From Oceanobacter kriegii DSM 6294 (GTDB lineage: Bacteria > Pseudomonadota > Gammaproteobacteria > Pseudomonadales > Oceanobacteraceae), in contig NZ_AUGV01000003.1 of the NCBI RefSeq assembly GCF_000422845.1, positions 1 through 64,000 on the forward strand: DNA of 64,000 bases, in the 5' to 3' direction. How positions within the stretch are numbered: position 1 is the first letter of the stretch; each line of letters opens with the position of its first letter. Position numbers and translations under genes: made by a program. Positions 38,050 to 51,963 of the stretch are shown piece after piece. The notes beneath the pieces were generated by a model. It saw only the letters and a list, made by a program, of their open reading frames with translations. It ran no database searches and was not told the DNA's origin.

Positions 38050-39357
38050 TCAAAACCAGACTTCAGTTTGAGCTCCAAAGCTCAGGCCGCTGGTGCTGTC
38101 TGCGGGCAGGATGCCACCGGAGTTGGCATGCTGACCTGCCTTGTCCCAGGTTGCATAGGTGGCAAAAAATCTCAGCGCCGGGCGAGAGAAGAAACTGCTT
38201 CCCAGAGAAAACTGCTGGGCCACAGTGAGCTTCGTCATGCTGTTGGTCTCATCAGACAGCTTGTCTTCAATACGGTCGTAGCCCACTTCAAACGCCGTAC
38301 TGGTGTAATTGCCCCATTTCAGCACCGGACGCACACCGGCTGAGATCCACGTATGACCAGCAAAGTCCTGGGTACCGTTAACACCATTGAAGGTGTCCTG
38401 ATTCTTGTCTTCGTAGATCACCACGTATTGGGCGTCAACCGTGTCCGAGAAGGATGCAAGACCCGAGTTAATAATGCGGAAAAAGTCGCCTTCAAGCGTA
38501 CCATTCTGGTTACCGGTGCCCTGGCTGGCAATCATGCCGTCACGTGCCTTCTGGATCGTCAGTTTATTGCTGCCACCCAGCACATCGGCAAAATTGATGT
38601 TCAGCGTCATCAACATACCCGAGTTGTTCGCCCCGGAGTAAGAGAACCCATCGCTGTCAGTACCACTGGTTGTACCCATGGTGAGGCCAACCTGAGTAGA
38701 GATCTTGTCTGTCAGGGATATGTCACTGAGCCGGATGTCATAGGTATTGTTGACATAGTTACCGTCCAGACTGCCATCCGCATTGCTGTCCAGATCGACG
38801 GAGTTATTTCGCAACCAGGAGAGGCCCAGCCTGGCAAAACCGACATCAACATTTTTGATGCCGACACCCGGGCCTTTAGGGTCCCAGTAAAAAAAGTCGT
38901 TGATATGAACGTTCTGACGGTCAATATGCTCCTTGCCCACCCAAACCGTTGCACCCGGCAAAGCCTCAATCACATTTGTGGCTGATACATTGAATCGACG
39001 AATTGCCATCTGATCCGGCTTGCTTTCATTCAGAGCTTCATAGTCTCCCGATTGATCAGTCGTATAAATGACATCGGTCAGAACCTTGAACGTCTTGTCA
39101 TCGTCTGTTTTGAATGTTTTTCCGAGCCGTATAGCAGCATAGGTCTCACACTCATTACCCAGACGATATTTGGCCGGTGCGCCTGCCGCCTTGAAGCAAA
39201 CCTGATCGCCACCATCCATCGACGCCCCAACACCGCTTCTCAAATACATATGAAATGGGTTTTCCACAGTTTCTGTTGAAAAACAGGCAGCGCTGGAAGT
39301 CATTCCCATCAATACAGCTGTCGCCTTTAAACAGTTTTTGTGATCAAGAATATTCAT
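38050..39357 (-). CDS. LamB/carbohydrate porin family outer-membrane protein
   Basis: A 435-aa beta-barrel protein with an N-terminal signal-like stretch (LKATAVLMGMTSSAACFS). Maltoporin-like motifs are present, including PFHMYLRSGVGASMDGGDQVCFKAAGAPAKYRLGNECETYA. It ends in an aromatic residue (TEVWF), as outer-membrane barrels do. Cys residues near the N-terminus could form the conserved loop disulfide. The gene is divergent from the TRAP transporter genes across about 263 bp. It most likely passes the same substrate across the outer membrane, which points to a sugar, polyol or sugar acid. Confidence 0.85.
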   Translation of the reverse strand: MNILDHKNCLKATAVLMGMTSSAACFSTETVENPFHMYLRSGVGASMDGGDQVCFKAAGAPAKYRLGNECETYAAIRLGKTFKTDDDKTFKVLTDVIYTTDQSGDYEALNESKPDQMAIRRFNVSATNVIEALPGATVWVGKEHIDRQNVHINDFFYWDPKGPGVGIKNVDVGFARLGLSWLRNNSVDLDSNADGSLDGNYVNNTYDIRLSDISLTDKISTQVGLTMGTTSGTDSDGFSYSGANNSGMLMTLNINFADVLGGSNKLTIQKARDGMIASQGTGNQNGTLEGDFFRIINSGLASFSDTVDAQYVVIYEDKNQDTFNGVNGTQDFAGHTWISAGVRPVLKWGNYTSTAFEVGYDRIEDKLSDETNSMTKLTVAQQFSLGSSFFSRPALRFFATYATWDKAGQHANSGGILPADSTSGLSFGAQTEVWF

Positions 39358-39515
39358 ATTGTTCGCTCTTTATTATTAATATGATTCTGGTCTGAGTTCT
39401 TAGGCTCAAACGTGAGCAAATATTAGCCAGATTAAAAATGAGCTTTCCAATGACAAAACAGAATGTGCAGAACGAAAATGTAATGACGGAAGACCGCACT
39501 GGTTGTGAAGCAGGG

Positions 39516-39532
39516 CTTAACGAATTGTTAAG
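39516..39532. promoter_or_regulatory. LysR-type operator palindrome in the porin/TRAP divergent promoter
   Basis: CTTAAC-GAATT-GTTAAG is a perfect 6-bp inverted repeat with a 5-bp spacer, fitting a T-N11-A LysR box. It continues into AATAT, and the 10-mer TTAAGAATAT recurs upstream of the transketolase genes at 43578-43587. The rest of this 263-bp gap appears non-coding. Confidence 0.6.
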
Positions 39533-39620
39533 AATATGCAATTGAAAAAAAGCCAGCATGCCATGACGATGAAGGTCTGCTTACGGCAGAAACAATAACT
39601 CTAAAAATCAGGTACAAAAT

Positions 39621-40595
39621 ATGAAAACGCCCACCAAGCTCTTTTTGGCTATCTCCATTGCTTGCTCCTCACCCGTCGCCTTCAACCTCGCTCAGGCCGA
39701 TGAATTCGTGCTTGCACATGGCGCGACACCGGGCAATCCACGATACGAAGCAGCCGAGCTTTTCGCCAATCTTGTACCGTCATGTTCCAGTGATTTATCC
39801 GTATCGGTAGCGCCATCTGCAACCATGGGCGACGACGCTGAAATGCTGACGTCGGCCACCGCCGGTATTATCCAGATGAGCGTCAATTCACAAGGTGCTG
39901 TAGCCCAGATCATTCCGGAAGTTGGCGCCATCGGCCTGCCGTTCCTGTTTGAAAATGAAGCCGAAGCATGGCGTGTTCTGGATGGTCCGATCGGCGCCAA
40001 GCTGGATCAAAAAGCGCAACGTGCTGGCCTTAAGATCATCGCGTTTTGGGACAACGGTTTCCGTAACGTGACCCACTCTGAAAAATTCATCACAAAACCT
40101 GCCGATCTCAAAGGCATGAAAATCCGCACACCACCGGATCAAGTAGCGCTCGACATCTTCAAGGAACTGGGCGCCAGCCCTGCTCCATTAGCCTGGAGCG
40201 AACTGCCAACCGCACTACAAAGCGGCACATTTGATGGCCAGGAAAACCCGCTGACCAATATTTATTCCGCCAAACTGCATGAGATTACGCCCTTCATTTC
40301 CATGACGGGACACCAGTATCAAAGCAACCCGGTCGTTGCGAGCCTGATGTGGTGGAATGGTCTGTCTGATAGCGACAAAGCCTGTATCACTGATTCTGCT
40401 GAGCAGGCTGGCTGGTATCAGCGTGGCTCCAACCTGATTGCTAACCAGAAGCTGCGTCAGGTCATCGAAGACGAAGGCGGTAAGTTTGCTGAGGTAGACC
40501 ACGCCGCGTTTGCCAAGGCAACCCAGCCTGTGATTGAAAAGTACCAGAAGAAACTGGGCAGCTTCGTCGATGAACTGAAAGCTTCCGTTCAATAA
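39621..40595 (+). CDS. dctP: TRAP transporter substrate-binding protein (DctP)
   Basis: A 324-aa periplasmic binding protein with a signal peptide ending at AQADEF. The mature domain begins FVLAHGATPGNPRYEAAELFANLV. The carboxylate-binding arginine lies in the typical stretch LKGMKIRTPPDQV, and WSELPTALQSGTFDGQENPLTN is the DctP family core. An Arg there implies an acidic ligand (sugar acid or other carboxylate). It begins the operon dctPQM. The shared promoter with the LamB-like porin suggests outer- and inner-membrane uptake of one compound. Confidence 0.93.
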   Translation: MKTPTKLFLAISIACSSPVAFNLAQADEFVLAHGATPGNPRYEAAELFANLVPSCSSDLSVSVAPSATMGDDAEMLTSATAGIIQMSVNSQGAVAQIIPEVGAIGLPFLFENEAEAWRVLDGPIGAKLDQKAQRAGLKIIAFWDNGFRNVTHSEKFITKPADLKGMKIRTPPDQVALDIFKELGASPAPLAWSELPTALQSGTFDGQENPLTNIYSAKLHEITPFISMTGHQYQSNPVVASLMWWNGLSDSDKACITDSAEQAGWYQRGSNLIANQKLRQVIEDEGGKFAEVDHAAFAKATQPVIEKYQKKLGSFVDELKASVQ

Positions 40596-40612
40596 ATGAC
40601 ACGGGTGATATC

Positions 40613-41176
40613 GTGATTGATTCAACCTTGAACCACACGCGGGAGCCTTTGCGCTCCCGTGTTTCAGCAGCGCTGGCAAAAGCGCTCTCAGTGATCAACC
40701 TGAGCGGTGCAGTCATTGTCGGTGTGACTCTGACGTTAATCTTTCTGGTGATATTCGTGAATGTTATTGCCAGATATTTTTTTGAGAACGGTTTTACATG
40801 GGCCTACGAGGTGCCATCCATACTGTTTCCCTGGGCAGTAGCCGGCGGCATTGTTATGGCTGCGTCACAAGGCCGAAACATATCGGTCGATATGTTTATC
40901 AATGCCCTGCCATCAAAATTTCGAAGAGCAATATACGTGGGAATTAATTTATTCCTGGGGTTCGTTTCTGCCTCAGTGGTTATTTATTCAATGCCAATCG
41001 TGATGTCCTCACGATATAGCCGACTGGCAGAAACTGGAATACCACAAATTTATGGTTATTCCAGCATTATGTACGCATTCTCGTTCGTTTGCCTGGTCAG
41101 CGTCATAACAGCAATCGAATATATGCTGGGGCGAGACGTTTACGACAAATCGCCTTCCGAAAATAATTTCAGCTAG
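40613..41176 (+). CDS. dctQ: TRAP transporter small membrane subunit (DctQ)
   Basis: A 187-aa membrane protein with four hydrophobic segments. The DctQ motif FVNVIARYFFENGFTWAYEVPSILFPWAVAGGIVMAA is near residue 45. The start is GTG, 17 nt after the dctP stop. It forms the translocator with DctM, and energy comes from a sodium gradient in this family. Confidence 0.9.
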   Translation: MIDSTLNHTREPLRSRVSAALAKALSVINLSGAVIVGVTLTLIFLVIFVNVIARYFFENGFTWAYEVPSILFPWAVAGGIVMAASQGRNISVDMFINALPSKFRRAIYVGINLFLGFVSASVVIYSMPIVMSSRYSRLAETGIPQIYGYSSIMYAFSFVCLVSVITAIEYMLGRDVYDKSPSENNFS

Positions 41177-41186
41177 GAGTAAAGTG

Positions 41187-42443
41187 ATGAGCAGCATTAT
41201 TATATGGGTGTTCCCGTTATTACTTCTGATTGCAGTACCGGTAGCGTTTTCGATGATTGGAGCAGCAGGCATTGCTCTGTTTATTGAAGGCAAGCCATTG
41301 GCCGTTATCGCCCAACGGTTGTACACGCCAACGCAAAGCTTCCCGATGCTGGCAATTCCATTTTTTATTCTGGCCGGTAGCCTGATGATGTCGGGGCGCT
41401 TTGGTGAGCACCTGGTTTCATTCGCCAAGCTGCTGGTCGGCCGGTTCCGAGGTGGTCTGTGCCACGTCAGTGTGGTGGGCTCGGTAATGTTTGGTGGCGT
41501 GTCAGGCTCCGCCGTTGCTGATGCATCTGCACTGGGCAATGCACTGATTCCGGTGCAAAAGAAAAATGGCTTTCCTGCCGCATTTGCAGCAGCGGTCAAC
41601 TCAGCCTCTTCAACCGTCTCGGCGTTAATTCCACCGTCGATCCCGCTCATCCTGTACGGCCTGGTTTCCAACACATCCATTATTGATTTGTTCGTCGCCG
41701 GTATCATTCCCGGGGTGCTGTTGGGTGTAGGAATGCTGGCTCTGACATGGTTTGCCGCCCTGCGCCGGGGTTTCCCGAAAGCGGAATTTACCGGAGGGTG
41801 GCAACGCTGGAGCGCCGAACTGAAACATGCGCTTCCCGCCATTGCGATGCCCTTCTTTGTGATAGGCACGTTGAGGTTTGGCATCGCAACGCCGACAGAA
41901 GTCAGTGTGATGGCAGTGGCCTATGCCCTTTTCGTCGGCGTGTTCATTTACAAGGATATGAACTGGTCAGGAATCGTACGGGCGCTGGCCGAAACCGGAG
42001 TTATGCTCGGTGCAGTGATGATCATCATTATGGCGTCGTCAGTGATTCAGTGGATTCTGACACTGGAGCGCGTGCCACAGGAGCTGGCCTCATGGGTCAC
42101 TGGTTCCATCAGTGAGCCGTGGATGGTGATCCTGGCCATGAACGTGATCATGCTGATTGTTGGCAGTTTTCTCGACCTTCCTGCTGCCGTTTTGCTACTG
42201 GGCCCACTCTTTACTGGCATTGCCGCCAGCATTGGTCTGGACCCTGTACAGCTTGGTCTGATGATGGTTGTCAATCTGGCGATCGGTTTGTATACCCCGC
42301 CTGTTGGCACAACCTTGTTTATTTCAACAACCATCGCCAAGGCCAGTATTCCATCCGTGTGCAAGGAGCTACTGCCGTTCTATTTACTGGCGCTCGGCGT
42401 GCTGGCGCTGATCAGTTACGTCCCGGCTCTCACCATGTACTAG
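41187..42443 (+). CDS. dctM: TRAP transporter large membrane subunit (DctM)
   Basis: A 418-aa polytopic protein of about twelve segments. ATG is chosen because AGGAG sits 7 nt upstream; a GTG one codon before is less well placed. Family segments SMIGAAGIALFIEGKPLAVIAQRLYTPTQSFPMLAIPFFILAGSLM and the PPSIPLILYGLVSNTSI block are clear. It carries the transport path of the TRAP system. It is convergent with a LysR gene, with a strong hairpin in the gap. Confidence 0.93.
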   Translation: MSSIIIWVFPLLLLIAVPVAFSMIGAAGIALFIEGKPLAVIAQRLYTPTQSFPMLAIPFFILAGSLMMSGRFGEHLVSFAKLLVGRFRGGLCHVSVVGSVMFGGVSGSAVADASALGNALIPVQKKNGFPAAFAAAVNSASSTVSALIPPSIPLILYGLVSNTSIIDLFVAGIIPGVLLGVGMLALTWFAALRRGFPKAEFTGGWQRWSAELKHALPAIAMPFFVIGTLRFGIATPTEVSVMAVAYALFVGVFIYKDMNWSGIVRALAETGVMLGAVMIIIMASSVIQWILTLERVPQELASWVTGSISEPWMVILAMNVIMLIVGSFLDLPAAVLLLGPLFTGIAASIGLDPVQLGLMMVVNLAIGLYTPPVGTTLFISTTIAKASIPSVCKELLPFYLLALGVLALISYVPALTMY

Positions 42444-42449
42444 CCGGTA

Positions 42450-42482
42450 GCAAGGCCAGTGCTCTGTTGCTACTGGCCTTGC
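42450..42482. terminator. bidirectional hairpin between dctM and LysR
   Basis: GCAAGGCCAGT and ACTGGCCTTGC form a perfect 11-bp stem with an 11-nt loop in the 79-bp gap between convergent genes. There is no long T-run on either side. The stem is strong enough to act as a transcript 3' end for both directions, possibly with Rho. Confidence 0.6.
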
Positions 42483-42522
42483 CTGATTCATGACGTAACG
42501 TCCTTGCTGCGAAAGCCTGCTC

Positions 42523-43509
42523 TCAACGTTTAATCAACGTGCTCTGAAACGCCTGATAGCCATCTTCAATGTCCATCGTCCGGCTGCTCAGGTAATTCGT
42601 GATCAGCTTGTCATGTACGCCCACCTGCTGTTCCATCCACGAGCGGAATATCTTCACCAGTTTCTGCCCCTGGTGCCTGCTGGGGCTAACAATCCAATAG
42701 GCATCGAATCGGACAGCAGGGTACTCGGGAGTCAGTGGAATCAGGCGTCCGTCCAACAGCTCTCTGGCCGCCAGTGTCGTCGACTCAAGAATGACCCCAA
42801 TATTATTAACCGCTTGCTGAATAGCCATCGAAGAGCGATCAAATCTCAGCGCCGCGTTCATACTGGAACGCGAAAGCTGATGCCTGGCGAGCCAGCTATC
42901 CCACTGGATAAAGGTGTTCACACTGTCAATCAGACGGGCATTGGACAGCATCTCTTCCACGGATTCGTACTGTGAGCGCAGCTCCTCGTAGTATTCAGGG
43001 CTACACATTGGAAACACGTAATCCTGCAAAAACGGCGTGCAATGCAGTCCTTCCCAACTGGACGTGCCATAGCGAATATCGAAGTCGATCACTTCGCGCT
43101 CGAAATTGGAGGGGTCCGGGCTGGCATCAACACGCAGGTCCCATTCCGGGTTTTGCTGGATGTAATCCGCCAGTCTGGGGCCGAGCCAGCGCACCGCAAA
43201 GCTGGGCATGGCGCGAATAATCAGCTGGTGTGATTCCCGGCGCCGGGTAATCGATTGCCTCGCATTCCGAATCATCCCCAATGCAGAGGCCACCGATGTA
43301 TAAAGATGCTCGCCTTCAAGCGTCAGGCTGAGCTGTCGACGCTCTCTTCGGAACAGGCTGACACCGAGCATTTCCTCAAGCAGTTTGATTTGCTGGCTGA
43401 CCGCCGACGGCGAAACGCTCAGATCTTCTGCAGCCCTCGAAATACGGCCATTTCTGGCCACCGCTTCAAAATAAATCATGCTGTTGAGACTGGGATCTCG
43501 TGACATCAC
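42523..43509 (-). CDS. LysR-family regulator in the TRAP/transketolase island
   Basis: A 328-aa LTTR. The helix-turn-helix region reads FEAVARNGRISRAAEDLSVSPSAVSQQIKLLEEMLGVSLFRRERRQLSL. The effector domain begins near residue 95. It lies between the TRAP genes and the divergent transketolase genes. The AT-rich gap upstream of it contains TTGTTAAG and TTAAGAATAT motifs shared with the porin/TRAP promoter. It is therefore the first candidate for the island's regulator. Confidence 0.92.
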   Translation of the reverse strand: MMSRDPSLNSMIYFEAVARNGRISRAAEDLSVSPSAVSQQIKLLEEMLGVSLFRRERRQLSLTLEGEHLYTSVASALGMIRNARQSITRRRESHQLIIRAMPSFAVRWLGPRLADYIQQNPEWDLRVDASPDPSNFEREVIDFDIRYGTSSWEGLHCTPFLQDYVFPMCSPEYYEELRSQYESVEEMLSNARLIDSVNTFIQWDSWLARHQLSRSSMNAALRFDRSSMAIQQAVNNIGVILESTTLAARELLDGRLIPLTPEYPAVRFDAYWIVSPSRHQGQKLVKIFRSWMEQQVGVHDKLITNYLSSRTMDIEDGYQAFQSTLIKR

Positions 43510-43550
43510 ACGCTCCTTATCGGCACACCTTCACCCACACGATAATACCC

Positions 43551-43590
43551 ACTTGTTAAGCTCAGGTTAATATTTGATTAAGAATATCTG
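43551..43590. promoter_or_regulatory. operator-like repeats upstream of the transketolase genes
   Basis: TTGTTAAG at 43553-43560 and TTAAGAATAT at 43578-43587 repeat elements of the CTTAAC-N5-GTTAAG-AATAT site at 39516. Both loci continue with ATTGA. This suggests that one LysR protein binds both divergent regions. Confidence 0.5.
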
Positions 43591-43677
43591 ATTGATGAAG
43601 TGACGTTCCGGGAAGAAACTATCTGAGCTCAAGTCATACATTTCAATGTATCTGCAAAAAGAATAAGAGACAGAAAC

Positions 43678-44523
43678 ATGACCGAATCAATCCCCGAAAA
43701 AGGCATAAGCCTGGCGCAACGCGCCTGGAATATACGCCAGAAATCCCTGCTCATGGGGGCCGTACAAAAACAAGGATATGTTGGCCAGGCACTTGGTGTT
43801 GCCGACGTATTGGCTGTTTCTTACTTCCACGCGCTCAGCTATCGCGCCGATGAGCCGGAATGGGAACAGCGCGACCGCTTTCTGCTGTCGATTGGCCATT
43901 ACGCCATTGCCCTTTACGCCGCGCTGCTCGAAGCCAAAGTACTGCCAGAGTTCGAACTGGAAACTTACGGAACCGACAACAGCCGTCTGCCAATGTCCGG
44001 CATGGCTTCCTACACGCCAGGTATGGAGATTACCGGTGGCTCCCTCGGTCACGGCCTTGGTATCGGTGTTGGCATGGCCATGGGGCTGAAGCGCAAGCAA
44101 TCTGCATCGTTTGTCTACAACCTGATGTCCGATGGTGAGTTGGGTGAGGGCTCTACCTGGGAGGCGGCCATGTCGGCAGCACACCAGAAGCTCGACAACC
44201 TGATTTGCCTGGTCGATTTCAATAACCAGCAAGCCGATGGCCCATCGACCGAAATGCTCTCGTCAGAGCCGGTTGACCAGAAATTTGAAGCCTTTGGCTG
44301 GCATGTCCAGCGGGTCGATGGCAACGACATTGATGCTCTGGTCGCGGCGTTTGATAACGCCCGCAACCTCAACGAAGCCAAGCCTCGCGTCATTATTTGC
44401 AACACCAAAATGTGCAAGGGCGTTCGCTTCCTGGAAGAGCGTGAAATTACGCACTTTGTGCGGGTCGATGAAGAAGAGTGGGATCTGGCTCTTAAGGTAT
44501 TGGAAGAGGGTAAGCCAGCATGA
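43678..44523 (+). CDS. transketolase-like N-terminal subunit
   Basis: A 281-aa thiamine-diphosphate-binding half-enzyme. The TPP/Mg motif reads MSDGELGEGSTWEAAMSAAHQKLDNLICLVDFNNQQADG, with SDG where most transketolases have GDG. An N-terminal HALSY and LPMSGMASYTPGMEITGGSLGHGLGIGVGMA match the transketolase first domain. Split subunits occur for transketolase-like enzymes of special sugars, such as apulose-4-phosphate or sulfosugar enzymes. The two halves overlap by ATGA. It probably transfers a two-carbon ketol unit. Confidence 0.9.
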   Translation: MTESIPEKGISLAQRAWNIRQKSLLMGAVQKQGYVGQALGVADVLAVSYFHALSYRADEPEWEQRDRFLLSIGHYAIALYAALLEAKVLPEFELETYGTDNSRLPMSGMASYTPGMEITGGSLGHGLGIGVGMAMGLKRKQSASFVYNLMSDGELGEGSTWEAAMSAAHQKLDNLICLVDFNNQQADGPSTEMLSSEPVDQKFEAFGWHVQRVDGNDIDALVAAFDNARNLNEAKPRVIICNTKMCKGVRFLEEREITHFVRVDEEEWDLALKVLEEGKPA

Positions 44524-45557
44524 GCATGAGCAGAAGAACATCCAAGTGGGAACCACGCCGCCCGGTCGACGCCAGCGAGCGTCAACTGACCTCGGCCATG
44601 ATTGCCTCTCTGGCGGCAGAAGGTTTACCAACAGTATCCGCACCGTTCGGCCACGCTCTGGTTGAAGCTGCGCAAAGCAACGACAAGATCGTTGGTCTGA
44701 CCGCCGACCTTGGCAAATACACCGACCTGCACATCTTCGAAAAAGCCTTCCCGGAACGCTATTACCAAATGGGAATGGCAGAACAGGTATTAATGAGTGC
44801 CGCCGCCGGTCTGGCCAAAGAAGGCTTTGTCCCCTTCGCCACCACTTACGCTGTGTTTGCCTCACGTCGGGCATATGACTTTATCTGCATGGCGATTGCG
44901 GAAGACAATCTGAACGTAAAAATTGTCTGTGGACTGCCCGGACTCACTACCGGCTATGGACCAAGCCATCAGGCAACCGATGATCTGGCCATCTTCCGGG
45001 CCATGCCTAACCTCACCATCGTCGACCCTTGCGATGCACTCGACACCGCCCAGGCAACCCAGGCCATTGCAGAGCATAACGGTCCGGTTTACATGCGCTT
45101 GCTGCGAGGCAAAGTGCCATCGGTCCTGCAGGAACACGAGGATTACCAGTTTGAAATTGGTAAGGCCAAGCTGCTGCGCGAAGGCAACGAAGTGCTCTTT
45201 ATTTCATCCGGTTTCATGACCATGAGAACACTGGAGGCTGCCACTCAGCTTGAAAAAGAAGGCGTACGGGTCGCCATTCTGCACGTGCCAACCATCAAGC
45301 CTCTCGACAAAGCAACGATTCTCAAGCACGCCTCCAAGCCTGGTCGCCTTGTCATTACGGCCGAAAACCACTCAGTGATTGGCGGTCTGGGCGAAGCCGT
45401 CGCCGCAACCTTGATGCGCAATGGCGTTACACCAGCATTCCGCCAGATTGCCCTGCCGGATGAGTTCCTCGACGCCGGGGCTCTGCCAGTGCTGCACGAC
45501 CAGTACGGAATTTCCACCGAGGCGATCATTGCCCAGACCAAGTCCTGGCTTGCGTAA
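44520..45557 (+). CDS. transketolase-like C-terminal subunit
   Basis: A 345-aa partner subunit carrying the pyrimidine-binding and C-terminal domains. The catalytic glutamate that activates TPP is expected in YYQMGMAEQVLMSAAAGLA. The histidine-containing loop GLPGLTTGYGPSHQATDD is present, and RPGLVITAENHSVIGGLG-like sequence is in the C-terminal domain. It is translationally coupled to the N-terminal subunit. Together they equal one transketolase of about 626 aa. The substrate is unassigned. Confidence 0.9.
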   Translation: MSMSRRTSKWEPRRPVDASERQLTSAMIASLAAEGLPTVSAPFGHALVEAAQSNDKIVGLTADLGKYTDLHIFEKAFPERYYQMGMAEQVLMSAAAGLAKEGFVPFATTYAVFASRRAYDFICMAIAEDNLNVKIVCGLPGLTTGYGPSHQATDDLAIFRAMPNLTIVDPCDALDTAQATQAIAEHNGPVYMRLLRGKVPSVLQEHEDYQFEIGKAKLLREGNEVLFISSGFMTMRTLEAATQLEKEGVRVAILHVPTIKPLDKATILKHASKPGRLVITAENHSVIGGLGEAVAATLMRNGVTPAFRQIALPDEFLDAGALPVLHDQYGISTEAIIAQTKSWLA

Positions 45558-45592
45558 AACCAACAACAAACATTCAAATACAAGGATTTAAA

Positions 45593-46345
45593 ATGGGTAT
45601 TTTATCGGGTAAATACGCGATCGTTACCGGCGCAGCTTCCGCCAATGGGCTGGGTAAATCGACGGCAAAACTGTTTGCCGAGCACGGTGCCACCGTAGCA
45701 ATTCTGGATCTGGACGAAGCGGCAGCGAAATCTGCGGCCAAGGATCTGGGTGATCAACACATTGGTCTGGCATGCAATGTGACTGACAAACAGGCGTGCG
45801 ACAGCGCTGTTCAAGCGTTGATCCAGCAGTGGGGAAGCGTTGATATTCTGGTGAATAACGCGGGGATTACCCAACCAATCAAACTGTTGGACGTCACCGC
45901 TTCCAACTACGACGCCGTTCTGGACGTCAATCTGCGTGGCACCCTGTACATGAGCCAGGCCGTATTGCCTTTCATGAAAGAAAAGCAGTCCGGCTCCATT
46001 GTGAATATTTCATCCGTGTCCGCACAGCGCGGCGGCGGTGTCTTTGGCGGCCCACATTACTCTGCGGCGAAAGCCGGTGTATTGGGATTGACCAAGGCAT
46101 CTGCTCGTGAAATGGCGCCATTCAATATTCGGGTCAATGCCATTTGCCCGGGCTTTATCGCCACCGACATCACCGCAGGCAAAATGACCGACGAGATGAT
46201 GACAACGGTACTGTCCGGGATTCCAATGGGCCGGGCAGGCAAAGCCGAAGAAGTGGCTGGCTGCTGTCTGTTCCTTGCATCAGAACTCTCCAGCTATGTC
46301 ACCGGGTCTGAAGTCGACGTCAACGGTGGCTCGCTGATTCACTGA
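45593..46345 (+). CDS. SDR-family dehydrogenase
   Basis: A 250-aa classical short-chain dehydrogenase. The cofactor motif TGAASANGLGKSTA is slightly longer than TGxxxGxG. NNAG is present. The catalytic triad is SVSAQRGGGVFGGPHYSAAKAG with Tyr and Lys intact. It lies 35 nt after the transketolase C-subunit and is almost certainly co-transcribed. It could oxidise the imported polyol, or reduce the aldehyde product of the transketolase; either direction fits. Confidence 0.92.
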   Translation: MGILSGKYAIVTGAASANGLGKSTAKLFAEHGATVAILDLDEAAAKSAAKDLGDQHIGLACNVTDKQACDSAVQALIQQWGSVDILVNNAGITQPIKLLDVTASNYDAVLDVNLRGTLYMSQAVLPFMKEKQSGSIVNISSVSAQRGGGVFGGPHYSAAKAGVLGLTKASAREMAPFNIRVNAICPGFIATDITAGKMTDEMMTTVLSGIPMGRAGKAEEVAGCCLFLASELSSYVTGSEVDVNGGSLIH

Positions 46346-46395
46346 CACCAGCAAGACCCTGGTAGCTCTCTGACCAGTCTTTGTCGATATGACAC

Positions 46396-46424
46396 GCCCC
46401 TGAACAGGGGCCTTTTTCTGTTTT
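46396..46424 (+). terminator. intrinsic terminator after the SDR gene
   Basis: GCCCCTG-AA-CAGGGGC followed by CTTTTTCTGTTTT forms a short strong hairpin with a T-rich tail. It ends the transketolase-SDR operon ahead of the next LysR gene. Confidence 0.88.
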
Positions 46425-46455
46425 CGATGCAACTAAAATAACAAGAGCATTGGTC

Positions 46456-47385
46456 ATGATTAATAACCGCATCAAATTCCGTCATCTTCAGTGTTTCACC
46501 GAAGTGGTGAACCAGGCCGGTATGGGCAGGGCCGCCTGCAATCTCTCTCTGACACAGCCAGCGGTCTCTCGTCGGATCAAGGAGCTGGAGGAGATTCTGG
46601 ATGTTCAACTTCTGAACCGTACCAACCAGGGAGTATTCCCCACCGAAGCAGGCCAGGTATTTTTTGAGCACGTTCAAAGAAGCCTGTTATCGATCTCCGA
46701 AGGTATCAACACCCTCAAAGAGAACTCATCTGCGAGAGAAATTTCACTGACTATCGGTATCGGTCTGAGCATCAACTGGGAGGTTCTTTCCCAGGTAATC
46801 AACACCATCAAGAATGAATTCCAGAATGTGAAAATACGCATTCTGAGAGGCTACAACGGAACCATTTATAGCAAAGAGCAAATCGAGGACTACGACTTCT
46901 TTATTGGCTATATCAACGAAAGCGAACCTCACAAAGAACTTGGCTACCGCAAATTACATGAAGATGAGATTTACCTGATAGCAAGAGAGAACCATCCATT
47001 GTCTGACTCAAACAACGTTTCCATGGAGGACTTGAAGGACTTCGAGATGGTACTGCCTTCCGATCACTCGGAAATCAGCAACAGGATTTCAGAAATTCAT
47101 GAACAGATGAAAGATTCCGCTACCGGGATCACACAATCGTTTTCCGATGAATTCTCAATCAACTACTGTGAATACTCAGACGCTATTTGCATCGTCAAAA
47201 AGTCCACCCTGCTGGGCATGGAGAAACCCGCAAGCGTCACAATCCTCAGCAATGCCATACTGGAAAGTGGGCTTGATGTTGCCCTGATCTGGAAAAGCAC
47301 CCCATCCCAGAGCAACAAGGAAAAGCGAATCAGTCGGCGCTTTATCGAACTGTTCGACTTTCACTGGAGCCAGACCTTACAGTAA
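46456..47385 (+). CDS. LysR-family regulator
   Basis: A 309-aa LTTR. The helix-turn-helix region reads HLQCFTEVVNQAGMGRAACNLSLTQPAVSRRIKELEEILDVQLLNRTNQGVF. ATG at MINNRIKF is taken; a TTG six nucleotides earlier is possible. The effector domain is more AT-rich and polar than neighbouring genes. This fits the pcaQ/cbl-like group that follows catabolic operons. It lies after the terminator of the SDR gene and is the second regulator candidate for the island. Confidence 0.88.
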   Translation: MINNRIKFRHLQCFTEVVNQAGMGRAACNLSLTQPAVSRRIKELEEILDVQLLNRTNQGVFPTEAGQVFFEHVQRSLLSISEGINTLKENSSAREISLTIGIGLSINWEVLSQVINTIKNEFQNVKIRILRGYNGTIYSKEQIEDYDFFIGYINESEPHKELGYRKLHEDEIYLIARENHPLSDSNNVSMEDLKDFEMVLPSDHSEISNRISEIHEQMKDSATGITQSFSDEFSINYCEYSDAICIVKKSTLLGMEKPASVTILSNAILESGLDVALIWKSTPSQSNKEKRISRRFIELFDFHWSQTLQ

Positions 47386-47442: not shown

Positions 47443-48672
47443 TCAGGCCGCAACAGCCTGTCGGTGCCGATAAACCTGAACGTAGGCAAACAACGCCAGT
47501 ACCAGTGGCACGAAAGACACCCACAATACCGCTGACCAGCCCCAGGCCGTCAGCACCCCACCCGACGAAAACGAACCCACGGCCATCAGTCCAAAAACGA
47601 TGAAGTCATTGAGCGACTGAACCCGGGTTTTCTCTTCCGGACGGTGGCATTCCAGTACCAACGCCGAGGCCCCCAGGAAACCGAAGTTCCAGCCCAGCCC
47701 CAGCACAATCAGCATGCCCCAGAAATGGAACAGGTCGAGGCCAGCCAAGCCAATCGCCGCAGAAATACCCGTTAATGCCAGCCCCAGGCCTGCCACTTTC
47801 ACAGCACCGAACTTTTCGATCAGTCGTCCGGTGAAGAAGCTGGGGCCGTACATGGCGATGACGTGCCACTGCAATCCGGTATTGGCGGATGCCTGGGTAT
47901 GGCCACACAGGTGCATTGCCAGTGGCGCTGCGGTCATCAGGAAGTTCATCAGGGTATAAGACACCGCACCACACAACACGGCTGCGATGAACAGCGGCTG
48001 GCGGGCTATTACGCCTAACGGTCGTCCACCCTGTTGTTCAGCCACTGTTGGCGGCGGCAGTTTTACCCCGGCCAGAATAATACCCGACAGCACCGCCACT
48101 AACGCCTGTACCAGAAACGTGCCGGCAAAGGTCTGGGCAGGCCACAAGTCCATGGTCCAGGTCACTAATTGCGGCCCCAATACACCGGCGGCAATCCCGC
48201 CCCCCATCACCAACGACAGCGCTCGGGCGCGTTTCTCGGGTGCCACGCCATCGGCGGCAGCGAAGCGGAACGACAGCACCACCGCGGCATAGGCACCGCC
48301 AAAAAAGGTGGCCAGACAAAATAGCCAGAACGAATGGTTCATCACCGCCAGCAATGCCACTAACCCGGCCAGCACTCCGGTACTGGTACCGGCCTGAAAC
48401 GCGACCAGTCGGCCAAAACGTCGGGCCAGCCATCCTGCAGGCCAGATACAGGCCGCCATACCAACGACAAAAATCGAGATGGGCAGCGTGGCCAAAGCCT
48501 GCGACGGCGCAAAGGTATTGCCAATAATGGCACCTGTGGCATAAATCACAATGGCGTTCGCCCCGGCCAGCGCCTGAGCCAACGTCAGTCGCCAGATGTT
48601 GCTGCGCTGAACCGACTCGGTCAGTTCAATCGGACGATGCTTACGATCCGTTGCGTTCGTTCGGGTATTCAT
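47443..48672 (-). CDS. MFS transporter
   Basis: A 409-aa major facilitator with about twelve segments and the cytoplasmic motif GWLARRFGRLVAFQAGTSTG after the second segment. The start overlaps the stop of the upstream dehydrogenase gene (ATGA). Together with the dehydrogenase, cupin and ABM-like genes it forms a minus-strand operon opposite a LysR gene. The direction of transport cannot be read from sequence. Confidence 0.88.
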   Translation of the reverse strand: MNTRTNATDRKHRPIELTESVQRSNIWRLTLAQALAGANAIVIYATGAIIGNTFAPSQALATLPISIFVVGMAACIWPAGWLARRFGRLVAFQAGTSTGVLAGLVALLAVMNHSFWLFCLATFFGGAYAAVVLSFRFAAADGVAPEKRARALSLVMGGGIAAGVLGPQLVTWTMDLWPAQTFAGTFLVQALVAVLSGIILAGVKLPPPTVAEQQGGRPLGVIARQPLFIAAVLCGAVSYTLMNFLMTAAPLAMHLCGHTQASANTGLQWHVIAMYGPSFFTGRLIEKFGAVKVAGLGLALTGISAAIGLAGLDLFHFWGMLIVLGLGWNFGFLGASALVLECHRPEEKTRVQSLNDFIVFGLMAVGSFSSGGVLTAWGWSAVLWVSFVPLVLALFAYVQVYRHRQAVAA

Positions 48673-49718
48673 GAAGCTTCCATATTCATTCGGGTAGTCA
48701 TATCCATTACTTGCCTGAACATCGGAGCTCCTTCTCTCAGGCGCGCCATGCCCGACAATAATTCTTCAAAAGCGATCAGCTCAATCATGGGTTCGGCTTC
48801 GGTCAGGGCGGTAAAGTGCAGCGCCCGTTCGGCATCGTGTGGCGTGCCTGTCATGGAGCCGATCAGTTGCCTCTCACCACCGACCAGCAAGCCAGCCTTC
48901 AATGGCAGTGGCTCCGGTGCCGGATTCAATGTCACCATGCGGCCCTGTGGTACTAGCCCCGCGACCAGTTCGGCCACCTGGGCGGATGCCGCCACCGTAT
49001 TAATGATGGCCTGGACGCCGCCCAGAGCTTGCAAGGCCGCTACCGCGTCATGCCGGTTGGTATCGATGTAGTGGTGTGCCCCAAGGGATCTGACGGTTTT
49101 GGCAATATCATCACCACGGCCGACAGCGACCACCTCAAACCCCATACGTTCGGCATATTGCAATGCCATGTGCCCCAGGCCACCAATACCAAACACCGCC
49201 ACCTTGTCTCCGGCGCTTGCACCGCATTTGCGAAGCGCATTGAAGGTCGCCAGTCCGGCACACAACACCGGGGCAGCGTGTACCGAATCCAGTTGTTCCG
49301 GAATCGCCACCAGACCACCAACCGGCAGGCACACAAATTCGCCATATCCGCCATCCAACTGACGGCCAACGACCCGTTGATTTGAACATAAGTTGAACGC
49401 CCCGCGGCGACAACCGTCACATTCCAGACAAGGGCCTGCCAGTCTGCCGACGCCAACCCGCTGGCCTGTTTGCCAGCGGCTGCCTGATTGTTCGCCCAGC
49501 GCCACAATGCGCCCAACAATTTCATGGCCGGGTACGCGTGGAAGCTCTGCTTCCAGAGGTCGCTCGATATCCGCAATATCGGCACCGCACAGGCCACACG
49601 CTTCGACCTGAATCAGGGCTTCGTGAGCCCCCGGATGCGGTAATTCCCGCTCGGCCAATTCCAGTTCACCCGGACGTACAACCTGCATAACGCGATAACG
49701 TTGTGGCAATGCTGCCAT
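48669..49718 (-). CDS. zinc-dependent alcohol dehydrogenase family protein
   Basis: A 349-aa medium-chain dehydrogenase. The catalytic-zinc region is CGLCGADIADIERPLEAELPRVPGHEIVG. The structural-zinc cysteines are in CLECDGCRRGAFNLCSN. The nucleotide-binding motif is GIGGLGHMALQYA. NAD(P)-dependent oxidation of an alcohol, or reduction of an aldehyde, is expected. It sits between MFS and cupin genes in a small catabolic or detoxification operon. Confidence 0.92.
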   Translation of the reverse strand: MAALPQRYRVMQVVRPGELELAERELPHPGAHEALIQVEACGLCGADIADIERPLEAELPRVPGHEIVGRIVALGEQSGSRWQTGQRVGVGRLAGPCLECDGCRRGAFNLCSNQRVVGRQLDGGYGEFVCLPVGGLVAIPEQLDSVHAAPVLCAGLATFNALRKCGASAGDKVAVFGIGGLGHMALQYAERMGFEVVAVGRGDDIAKTVRSLGAHHYIDTNRHDAVAALQALGGVQAIINTVAASAQVAELVAGLVPQGRMVTLNPAPEPLPLKAGLLVGGERQLIGSMTGTPHDAERALHFTALTEAEPMIELIAFEELLSGMARLREGAPMFRQVMDMTTRMNMEAS

Positions 49719-49786
49719 AGAGATTCCTTTTTACGTTCATCCAGACGGTCATCCCGTCCCGTTGTCTGCGCATGGCACTGCCACGA

Positions 49787-50497
49787 CTACGAGACCGCAC
49801 CATCCAGAACCAGATGGCCACTTTTCACAAATACGGCCGTGTTGTGTTCATGAGCAAACCAGCGGCTGGTGTCCCCGGCTGGCAAGCGAATCCAGCTCCC
49901 CGATGGATAGCGTTTCTCCCTACCCTGCTGCTCGCTGCACAACGCACCTTGCAACACCAACAACTCCCGGCCACCAGCAGCGCTGATCGACAATTCTGCA
50001 TGCTGATGCAACCGTCTCAGCAGTACCTGCTCTCGCCCAACCGCCGTGCCGGAGCAATCCACCACGGGGCCATCAAACAAAGGGCAAATGGCGCCGTCCG
50101 ACAACGTTCGCCACTGGTTCGGATCATTGGTATTGATGCGCACCCGAGCACGGTCATCGCGCTGCATCTGGCACAGTTTGACGAATATCAGGGCACCATC
50201 GCTGGCATCCGGCTGATGCCAGGAGCCCGGTGGATTGCGCATGTACCAGCCTTTGGGGTGCAGGTTACTGCCTTCGTTAAAGCTGCCTTCCAGTACCAGA
50301 ATTTCTTCGCCACCTGGATGCTGATGACGGGGAAAGGATGCCCCCTTGGCAAACCGCACCAGGGTCGTCGCACGACCGCTTTCCTCTCCCATGCGGTCGA
50401 GCATCATGCGTTCGACACCCGCCGCCGGTGAGGCTACCCAGTGGTAGTCTTGTGGCCGTTGTTCAGCTCGTTGACTCAGGTCGGCATGAATCTGCAT
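49787..50497 (-). CDS. double-cupin ChrR-like protein
   Basis: A 236-aa protein with two cupin halves. The first has the metal-binding set FPRHQHPGGEEILVLEGSF ... WHQP, with histidines and glutamate typical of the ChrR cupin. The second (LRRLHQHAELSISAAGGRELLVLQGALC) is less complete. There is no anti-sigma N-terminal domain, so it is not a complete ChrR. It may be a dioxygenase-like or isomerase-like cupin acting on the cluster's substrate; this is inference. Confidence 0.82.
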   Translation of the reverse strand: MQIHADLSQRAEQRPQDYHWVASPAAGVERMMLDRMGEESGRATTLVRFAKGASFPRHQHPGGEEILVLEGSFNEGSNLHPKGWYMRNPPGSWHQPDASDGALIFVKLCQMQRDDRARVRINTNDPNQWRTLSDGAICPLFDGPVVDCSGTAVGREQVLLRRLHQHAELSISAAGGRELLVLQGALCSEQQGREKRYPSGSWIRLPAGDTSRWFAHEHNTAVFVKSGHLVLDGAVS

Positions 50498-50527
50498 GGC
50501 ATCCTCAATGGTGTGCTGGCGAGTCGG

Positions 50528-50821
50528 TCAGCCCACTTCTGCCAGTTGGTAAATACGAACGTCCGGAGCGGCCGCTAACAGGGGTTTCAAGGCTTCCACC
50601 ACATCGGCATTAAATAACTCCGACTGCAAATAGGCGTTGGCGTCATCAACATTGACGAAGCCATGCAGCACCTGCACATCCTCATCACGCAGCAGCAATT
50701 CCTTGGAGATGGCACCCTCAATGGTGTCCAGGAATGGGGCCTTGTATTGCAAGTAGACGCCAACGGCTTCACTGCGTTTGGCCTCGTCAATGGTCAAGGT
50801 AATTTGCAAATAAGCAGGCAT
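50528..50821 (-). CDS. small ABM/Dabb-like protein
   Basis: A 97-aa protein. ATG at MPAYLQITLTID is preferred over a longer frame with a basic, non-conserved extension. The pattern AYLQITLTIDEAKRSEAVGVYLQYKAPFLDTIEGAISKELL fits a ferredoxin-like ABM (antibiotic biosynthesis monooxygenase) fold. It is the first gene of the minus-strand cupin-dehydrogenase-MFS operon. The function is unknown. Confidence 0.7.
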   Translation of the reverse strand: MPAYLQITLTIDEAKRSEAVGVYLQYKAPFLDTIEGAISKELLLRDEDVQVLHGFVNVDDANAYLQSELFNADVVEALKPLLAAAPDVRIYQLAEVG

Positions 50822-50991
50822 ATCAGTCTCTCCATGATGATCTATATGGTGTGCTGACAGCCGCCGCCGAAACGTCTCCAGTGACAAAAGAATTTCTTTG
50901 ATGATCTGTCAGCAACCGGGCCATAATCCAACTTATTCAAAAGCCCAACAAACCATCTATTCTTTCCATCGACAAAGAAAATCTTTATCGA

Positions 50992-51963
50992 ATGAACACA
51001 CCACAACACCTCAACGCGCTGCGGGCGTTTGAAGCCAGCGCCCGGCACCAGAGCTTTGCCGCCGCCGCCAACGAACTGAACGTCACCTCTGCTGCGGTGG
51101 GACAACTGGTACGAGGGCTGGAGGAGTGGCTTGGCGTCACGCTGTTTGTTCGCAGCCATTCCGGCAGGCATCGGCTGCAACCAACCGACACCGCTTTGAG
51201 GGCTTTGCCTGTCATCCAATCCGGTATGAATCAGCTCAAGCAGGGCCTCGACATGCTGGCTCAAGATCCGACCGCTGGCGTCCTCACGGTGACAGTGAGT
51301 CCGGCGTTTGCCGCCAAGTGGCTGCTGCCCAGACTGGACCGCTTTCAGGCAACGTGTCCGGATACCGACCTGCGGCTGGAAACCAGTCTCAAACCGGCGG
51401 ATTTTCAGGCCCAGCAAATTGATATTGGTGTTCGCTATGGTGCGGGACATTGGCCAGGTCTGGTGGCCGAGAAATTGATGGATGAAGAGATTTACCCGGT
51501 CTGCTCACCTGCCTTTTTACAACGCCACCCGATGTTGCAAGCCAGTGACCTGTACGCGGCTCAATTGCAGGAGCTACCATTGATTCACGACTTGTCGATG
51601 GACAGCCACAGTGGCTTTGCCAACTGGGAGGGCTGGTTTGACGCAGCAGGGGCTGCGTCTGTGGAACCATTAGCACAACCAGTACAGCCACTGTCGCAGC
51701 AGGCGGGCGACAAACGACGCATCCGCATCAATAACTCGGCGGCGGTGCTGCAAGCCGCCGCCGATGGTCAGGGGATTGCACTGGCGCGCAGTGTGATGGC
51801 CCAGGATGACATCCGTAGTGGACGATTGGTTCGACTACTGCCGCACATCCATTGGCACACCCCGCTGGCGTATTATCTGGTGTATCGCAGTAGCAGTGCC
51901 AACCTGCCTGCTTTACTGGCATTCAGGCAGTGGATTCAGGAAGAAGCCACCAGACAGCACTGA
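50992..51963 (+). CDS. LysR-family regulator (GcvA-like)
   Basis: A 323-aa LTTR. The N-terminus LNALRAFEASARHQSFAAAANELNVTSAAVGQLVRGLEEWLGVTLFVR is of the GcvA/AmpR subgroup. The effector domain starts near TPAGVLTVTVSPAFAAKWLLPRL-type sequence at about residue 95. It is divergent from the ABM-cupin-dehydrogenase-MFS operon with about 170 bp between, so that operon is its likely target. Confidence 0.92.
   Translation: MNTPQHLNALRAFEASARHQSFAAAANELNVTSAAVGQLVRGLEEWLGVTLFVRSHSGRHRLQPTDTALRALPVIQSGMNQLKQGLDMLAQDPTAGVLTVTVSPAFAAKWLLPRLDRFQATCPDTDLRLETSLKPADFQAQQIDIGVRYGAGHWPGLVAEKLMDEEIYPVCSPAFLQRHPMLQASDLYAAQLQELPLIHDLSMDSHSGFANWEGWFDAAGAASVEPLAQPVQPLSQQAGDKRRIRINNSAAVLQAAADGQGIALARSVMAQDDIRSGRLVRLLPHIHWHTPLAYYLVYRSSSANLPALLAFRQWIQEEATRQH

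Follow-up and report, generated by a model that had tools for sequence, protein, structure and literature searches.

A conserved dehydrogenase and split transketolase gene set suggests a kinase-free breakdown of unphosphorylated sugar acids

The gene island at positions 38050-47385 of Oceanobacter kriegii DSM 6294 contig NZ_AUGV01000003.1, which we studied within a window made up of the first 64,000 nucleotides of that contig (contig 2 of the 36 in a 4.5 Mb genome), suggests an undescribed, kinase-free breakdown of unphosphorylated sugar acids by an acid importer, a short-chain dehydrogenase (SDR) and a reprogrammed split transketolase (TK). The best explanation we can offer, tentative as it is, would be that an aldonate is imported by a tripartite ATP-independent periplasmic (TRAP) transporter, oxidised by the SDR and then deprived of a ketol unit by the TK, with no sugar kinase taking part. 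A description of such a gene set was not found in the openly licensed literature, so its novelty stays unproven; what that literature offered on apionate was a Rhodobacteraceae D-apiose cluster with transketolase unmentioned.

Nine intact open reading frames (ORFs) make up the island. An initial annotation of the sequence had described a LamB-type porin gene diverging from dctPQM, then a LysR gene, two TK subunit genes, an SDR gene and a second LysR gene, and the ORFs together with Pfam and NCBIfam profiles bore out this order; several of the NCBIfam labels rest on scores under the curated cut-offs. The same profile searches recognised a kinase, isomerase or aldolase in 0/9 of the genes, again as described. 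The first TK gene (TK-N; 43678..44523, + strand) encodes the thiamine-diphosphate-binding subunit with Pfam Transketolase_N and has 6yak as its best PDB match, and the second (TK-C; 44520..45557, +) encodes the pyrimidine-binding and C-terminal domains (Transket_pyr and Transketolase_C; aligned to 6yaj), giving the domain arrangement of a split transketolase on two successive chains. The two genes overlap by 4 bp and are followed after 35 bp by the SDR gene (45593..46345, +; Pfam adh_short_C2). The importer consists of the TRAP solute-binding protein DctP (39621..40595, +; TIGR00787, 234 bits, above cut-off), the small permease DctQ (40613..41176, +; Pfam DctQ, 80 bits) and the large permease DctM (41184..42443, +; TIGR00786, 419 bits, above cut-off).

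To see how far this arrangement is kept we compared 82 loci (the window, L044 and L045-L124), each covering up to 10 kb on either side of the ortholog. Presence of DctM, DctP and the GcvA-like LysR was scored by tblastn with a floor of 40% identity and 60% of the length, counts of kinases and isomerases cover recognised families and are hence lower bounds, and counts of gene-run families are approximate, the ORF caller having overlooked the window's own DctQ and first LysR. TK-C was present in 81/82 loci and a family SDR lay within four genes of TK-N in 76/82; the six loci without a near SDR include L057 and L071, both cut by contig ends. Of the 82 loci, the window among them, 54 carry DctM, 52 carry DctP and 55 carry the GcvA-like LysR. 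The commonest runs were TKN-TKC-SDR-dctPQM (23 loci), TKN-TKC-SDR (13) and SDR-TKN-TKC-dctPQM (5). A minimal set, SDR-MFS-TKN-TKC, with a major facilitator superfamily (MFS) carrier, occurs in Pantoea, Paraburkholderia, Caballeronia, Acinetobacter and Arthrobacter, and no sugar kinase was annotated or recognised among the adjoining genes of these five sets. The D-galactonate transporter subfamily is the closest group for the carriers of Acinetobacter and Pantoea (337 and 347 bits, under the cut-off of 395), the metabolite/H+ symporters for that of Arthrobacter (344 bits, cut-off 443 not reached). Rhizobium etli, Phyllobacterium and Aminobacter add a sugar ATP-binding cassette (ABC) transporter, and R. 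etli and Aminobacter have an amidohydrolase as well; the one of Aminobacter resembles fucono-lactonase (104 bits, cut-off 400). The genome comparison called for by the initial annotation thus found that SDR, split TK and acid transporter recur together widely, with accessory genes in a minority; the lack of a kinase that had seemed unusual in one island is the usual state of the gene family, recognised kinases lying near at least 25/82 loci.

The new point lies in the active site of the TK. In alignments of 88 TK-N and 87 TK-C orthologs, numbered as E. coli TktA, the catalytic and thiamine diphosphate/metal residues E411, D155, N185, H473, H66 and H261 are kept in all orthologs (87/87 or 88/88) and much of the phosphate and polyol contact set is lost. 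The substrate contacts H26, H100 and D469, the first two of which we take to be ketol contacts, are all replaced: H26 by Tyr in 87/88 (one gap), H100 by Ser in 88/88 and D469 by Tyr in 87/87. Within the canonical phosphate motif (R358, S385, F434, H461 and R520) R520 alone is kept, R358 being absent and F434 being Tyr in 87/87 each. The S385 and H461 columns vary with gap placement in alignments to TktA; against 6yaj, a split TK that aligns without gaps, these positions read Tyr and Leu. The segments around them are nearly invariant, A-D-L-x-K-Y-T (KYT at the S385 register of 6yaj) occurring in 86/87 orthologs and L-P-G-L...G-Y-G-P-S-H-Q (LPGL at the H461 register) in 87/87. The loop preceding G470 is one residue shorter in the orthologs; HMMER leaves a gap at Asp469 with the Tyr beside it and MAFFT places the Tyr at 469, at equal distance from H473. 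The serine that replaces the first glycine of the thiamine diphosphate motif (G154 to Ser in 88/88, SDG for GDG) is indeed present in TK-N as first noted, but it is not unusual, since 12/25 other split TKs carry SDG (row L031, broken by unread bases, left out), and it was rejected as a special mark of the family.

Published work on other transketolases helps to read these replacements. RSFHR is the phosphate-orienting motif of ordinary TKs and is RAFDR in the sulfofructose TK (PMC11659671). The E. coli mutant D469Y yields 68% R product and acts on propionaldehyde with a specific activity 8-fold that of the wild type (PMC3657141), H26Y is cited in the same paper as giving 88% R product, and the variant S385Y/D469T/R520Q evolved away from phosphorylated toward aromatic acceptors (PMC5073344). 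We infer by analogy that the natural Tyr26 and Tyr469 may act like the same mutations in E. coli, with R520 unchanged here. The rebuilt active site, as judged from its residues, fits unphosphorylated substrates, which lends partial support to the earlier suggestion of a TK that would act on such a substrate.

A tree of 53 entries, built from the joined alignments of both subunits and holding 18 of the 88 family members, places the family in a clade of its own (support 97) within a 22-member clade of Tyr26-bearing proteins (support 100), with AptAB and the other split TKs outside the latter. Tyr26 is also found in the sister loci L023, L029, L033 and L035, and Ser100 is not. By its sequence the TK pair falls outside each characterised split-TK family with which a comparison was feasible. 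The initial annotation had allowed that the pair might cluster with a known family; it did not do so with the apulose-4-phosphate TK, and SqwGH was compared by its published motif alone. AptAB of the D-apiose pathway in E. coli SE15 is likewise a split TK of a catabolic cluster, one for a plant sugar, but membership in it was rejected on its separate branch and its residues: AptAB keeps H26, H100 and GDG, and its cluster has an FGGY kinase and a sugar ABC transporter, whereas Pfam and NCBIfam profiles recognised no FGGY apulose kinase beside the TK in the window. SqwGH, the 6-deoxy-6-sulfofructose TK, is also split, with an altered phosphate motif and a non-phosphate substrate (PMC11659671); its RAFDR differs from the S/A/P-Y-Y-L-R of the island family, and the window has no SQ isomerase-type gene, unlike the SqwGH system. 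The split TK of Carboxydothermus hydrogenoformans (6yak/6yaj), the best PDB match of both island subunits, keeps RSFHR, unlike the island TK (PMC11659671). Split TK-N proteins with Tyr26 were also seen at L139, L140 and L141 (I at 100, either Q or H at 66), and by eye these stretches seem to lack an SDR next to the gene. In a sister branch (L138:7420-9955) an SDR gene lies between both TK genes with a TctC-like binding protein near, these labels also being given by eye. The O. kriegii genome holds one other transketolase, canonical in motif. At 24 loci the stretch contains a second TK, of full length (for example L052:6821-8788, the actinobacterial L087:5253-7211 and L101:1716-3686); it has D469N and has lost R358 in 22/24, and is canonical at L084 and L099.

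The partner dehydrogenase, the window SDR, matches PDB entry 7krk at 317 bits, the next PDB chain scoring 182 bits, and by alignment count the SDR of the Acinetobacter baumannii island (L130:4819-5568) shows 5 differences from 7krk in 249 residues, so that 7krk appears to be the enzyme of that island or nearly so. The 3-oxoacyl-ACP reductase (FabG) label of 7krk and 7krm is probably wrong. The window SDR was itself tried as a FabG and rejected, the equivalog cut-off being missed (best model PRK05653.1-3, 268 bits versus 296). Among 83 SDR relatives Tyr156 and Lys160 are kept in 83/83, Ser143 in 82/83 and Asp39 in 82/83 (one gap). Asp39 sits after the second strand, and an acidic residue at that position of an SDR favours NAD(H), which suggests an NAD-type SDR.

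The ligand class can be approached through DctP. In a chosen subset of 41 aligned DctPs of the family Arg148, Arg169 and Asn209 are invariant (41/41), with the spacing of the R152/R173/N213 carboxylate triad of 4P47 (PMC11668362), and TRAP binding proteins require a carboxylate (PMC4646407). The solved structures nearest to DctP are 4nq8, 7bbr (sugar-acid binding), 4pdh, 4xeq, 4p9k and 4p47, and a Foldseek search of the PDB with the predicted model (pLDDT 91.5) returned 4nq8, 7bbr, 4pdh and 4xeq as nearest. Within the homolog set of PMC11668362, 7BBR holds 2-keto-3-deoxygluconate, 4P47 is open and most others hold pantoate or erythronate, many of them co-purified.

Read together, these genes would make up a short pathway. 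The TRAP transporter would import a polyhydroxy-carboxylate (an aldonate), and the NAD-type SDR would oxidise the hydroxyl adjoining its terminal CH2OH to give an unphosphorylated alpha-hydroxy-beta-keto acid, HOCH2-CO-C(OH)R-COO-. The split TK would then remove the C2 ketol by thiamine diphosphate chemistry, leaving glyoxylate if R = H (a tetronate) or hydroxypyruvate if R = CH2OH (an apionate-type branched acid), either of which could enter central metabolism with no need for a sugar kinase. The direction of the SDR, the substrate class and the products are inferred, and there is a precedent of a kind in the proposal that a transketolase cleaves 5-keto-gluconate (PMC7970118). A possible but doubtful elaboration is a tetronate- or apionate-type route in which a stereo-inverted TK (Y26, Y469) would pass the ketol from the 3-oxo acid to a phosphate-free acceptor, releasing glyoxylate or hydroxypyruvate, and the second, single-chain TK (D469N, R358 lost) would work beside it in 22/82 loci. 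Should the E. coli mutants be a reliable guide, such a TK would suit the C2-epimers not taken by the LtnD/DenD-OtnK route.

Neighbouring genes bear on this proposal in a minority of loci. Recognised kinases lie in at least 25/82 stretches, a DAK-type match at L115 included, and inside the TK operon at 9/82 or more. At L103 and L120 genes for an L-threonate dehydrogenase, a 3-oxo-tetronate kinase, a decarboxylase and a 2-oxo-tetronate-isomerase-like protein lead directly into TK-N; at L103 the dehydrogenase (398 bits against a cut-off of 350), kinase (529/350) and decarboxylase (280/250) exceed their cut-offs, and the isomerase (256/325) stays under. L098 has the same tetronate genes with a DenD-like and a dehydratase gene, the SDR missing. 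At L068 the tetronate genes lie downstream, and an OiaX-like protein (45% to its L101 counterpart) is encoded there too. The LtnD/DenD-OtnI-OtnK-OtnC genes of the tetronate (L-threonate/D-erythronate) pathway thus immediately precede the TK pair at L098, L103 and L120, but that pathway employs a kinase and a decarboxylase, and the window has neither. D-apionate pathways with OiaK/OiaX, OiaC and an erythrulose kinase were reportedly set out by Carter et al. in 2018. Homologs of these lie near the core at L101 and L068, and sets with TIM-barrel and DAK-type genes elsewhere; the OiaK and OiaX homologs are under their equivalog cut-offs and the window has none. Of the 13 loci with TIM-barrel (SPI) genes 11 also have DAK, and DAK-type kinases were counted at 14 loci in total. 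L099 encodes a D-erythrulose-4-phosphate isomerase (242 bits, cut-off 240), which has relatives at L092/L093. Hydroxypyruvate(/glyoxylate)-reductase-like genes occur at 10 loci, glycerate-kinase-like genes at 6 and aminotransferase genes at 9, on 19 distinct loci of the 82. Judged by their predicted functions, several of these accessory sets would produce or use up HOCH2-CO-C(OH)R-COO- or the products of its cleavage. A DRL-type oxidoreductase gene (Pfam DRL_cat), presumably of the family of the Brucella DXR-like enzyme, was also seen directly upstream of TK-N, on the opposite strand, at L085, L087, L101, L109 and L121, and this enzyme might make or unmake a branched acid.

Several points weigh against the kinase-free reading. 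The enzyme functions on which it draws are predictions from gene sequence. R520, a phosphate contact, is kept in 87/87 orthologs, and loss of both H26 and H100 could mean a different ketol donor. The acceptor is the weak point: the textbook ketol acceptor is glyceraldehyde 3-phosphate, which is doubtful here because the phosphate site is altered. The accessory genes stand near the core in a minority of loci (kinase or isomerase types together at 29/82 or more), and neighbour genes can in any case belong to other pathways; the same count falls short of the majority of islands with a kinase or isomerase that would have refuted the initial reading. The OiaX-like and OiaK-like proteins of L101 score 456 and 449 bits and do not reach the cut-offs of 700. 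A 2,4-didehydro-3-deoxyrhamnonate-hydrolase-like gene lies at L087, L098, L101 (372 bits, cut-off 500) and L121, with a sugar-acid dehydratase-like gene also at L087 and L121, and these neighbours suggest a different sugar-acid route. Where fucono-lactonase-like genes and sugar ABC transporters stand beside the core the natural input may be a neutral sugar or a lactone. Finally, neither 3-oxo-tetronate kinase (OtnK) nor a MOFRL glycerate kinase was found in the O. kriegii genome, so that the accessory set seen elsewhere is unavailable to it.

Other explanations share part of this evidence. The pair could be a conventional split TK, with kinase and isomerase encoded elsewhere, that transfers the ketol of a sugar phosphate onto glyceraldehyde 3-phosphate in the manner of AptAB; known split TKs do work so, for example on apulose-4-phosphate (PMC13001218), and the retained R520 and the recognised kinases near 25/82 loci agree with it. 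We think this unlikely, as the RSFHR motif is changed at four of its five positions, AptAB lies in another branch and minimal sets with no recognised kinase recur in distant classes. The SDR might instead run in reverse and reduce what the TK releases, an aldehyde or a keto acid, the imported acid being a keto acid already. Asp39 suggests NAD(H) and so permits either direction, and bacteria with the sulfo-TK reduce the released sulfoacetaldehyde likewise (PMC11659671), but the separate reductase-like genes beside the SDR at 10/82 loci would then be redundant, and we regard this too as improbable.

The closest likeness in layout is to the steroid-17,20-desmolase genes desEAB/desABCD of Clostridium, Butyricicoccus and Propionimicrobium (PMC5408610), where lysR, SDR, TKN, TKC and a transporter stand together as they do in the family loci. 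There the dehydrogenase and the TK-type desmolase act on one ketone (PMC5408610), and, partly in our own reading of that paper, the future TK ketone carbon owes its oxidation state to the dehydrogenase. The island TK might by the same token be a side-chain lyase on a non-sugar alpha-hydroxyketone, as DesAB is with its hydroxysteroid dehydrogenase, and the aromatic pocket residues recall the engineered TK that accepts aromatics. The likeness is one of layout, however: the desmolase has a steroid substrate, whereas the carriers here are of carboxylate and sugar-acid types and several of the recognisable accessory genes are sugar-acid genes, which leaves a lyase of this kind distinctly unlikely. 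Very unlikely, in our view, is a scheme in which the SDR oxidises glycerate and the TK decarboxylates the resulting hydroxypyruvate onto an aldehyde; hydroxypyruvate is the standard laboratory TK donor (PMC3657141) and hydroxypyruvate-reductase-like and glycerate-kinase genes lie near some loci, but the OtnK/OtnC, OiaK/OiaX-like and TIM-barrel/DAK neighbours would go unexplained.

From the point of view of its distribution the gene set is real, conserved and mobile. The core of SDR, split TK and acid transporter occurs in Alpha-, Beta- and Gammaproteobacteria and in Actinomycetota, with TK-N identities of 58-85%. Closer to home a TK-N ortholog was found in none of 54 relatives of O. kriegii (6 of its genus, 27 of its family, 21 of its order), the next match having 40% identity, and in a class sample of 369 genomes, its own included, there was one other ortholog at 65% identity; since the relatives lack it, the island is accessory in this species. 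G+C content is 51.7% in the island stretch, 56.3% in the window as a whole and 58.2% in the 10 kb that lie to the right of the island. Among 594 candidate stretches from named genomes at least 584 were confirmed. The best 80 of the 584 were kept (69-85% identity, mostly Alphaproteobacteria), and the locus sample leans to the window's kin because study centred on the loci nearest to it. Plasmid records with E <= 1e-40 numbered 193, of which 188 were at 60-80% identity, Pantoea (49) and Rhizobium (34) leading, and 8/41 genomes from the actinobacterial family that includes the Enemella locus had an ortholog at 69-78% identity. A wider plasmid search gave 59.5% (Arthrobacter) and then a drop to 42% or less among the 60 of 358 records listed, and therefore the family looks well bounded in these records. 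It is plausible, though we stop short of calling it probable, that the island was acquired as a catabolic module serving a polyhydroxy-carboxylate (aldonate).

If the kinase-free reading holds, a TK route that skips phosphorylation would be added to sugar-acid catabolism in soil, plant-associated, marine and clinical genera, and it would explain gene sets that are now annotated as a generic transketolase with FabG. The structure of the partner dehydrogenase (7krk/7krm) is already solved, under a fatty-acid label. For engineers the family offers natural enzymes with Y26 and Y469, where E. coli TK needed mutation to reach an inverted product configuration and unphosphorylated acceptors.

The remaining genes of the island are regulators and a porin. 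The GcvA-like LysR (42523..43509, -; PRK11139, 256 bits, cut-off 288 not reached) is divergent from the TK operon. The PcaQ-like LysR (46450..47385, +; TIGR02424, 167 bits, cut-off 304 not reached) had no tblastn match above 45% in the other 81 loci. The LamB-family porin (38050..39357, -; Pfam LamB, 345 bits; PRK09360 maltoporin, 383 bits, cut-off 394 not reached), encoded divergently from dctP, had been counted as part of the system; its tblastn match was confined to the window among the 82 loci and it was rejected as a component. The porin is a local addition and the PcaQ-like LysR is likewise local, neither being conserved with the core. Adjoining the island, at 47443-51963 of the window, lie genes for an MFS exporter-like protein, a zinc-type alcohol dehydrogenase, a small monooxygenase-like protein and another LysR, together with a cupin gene that looks ChrR-like by eye.

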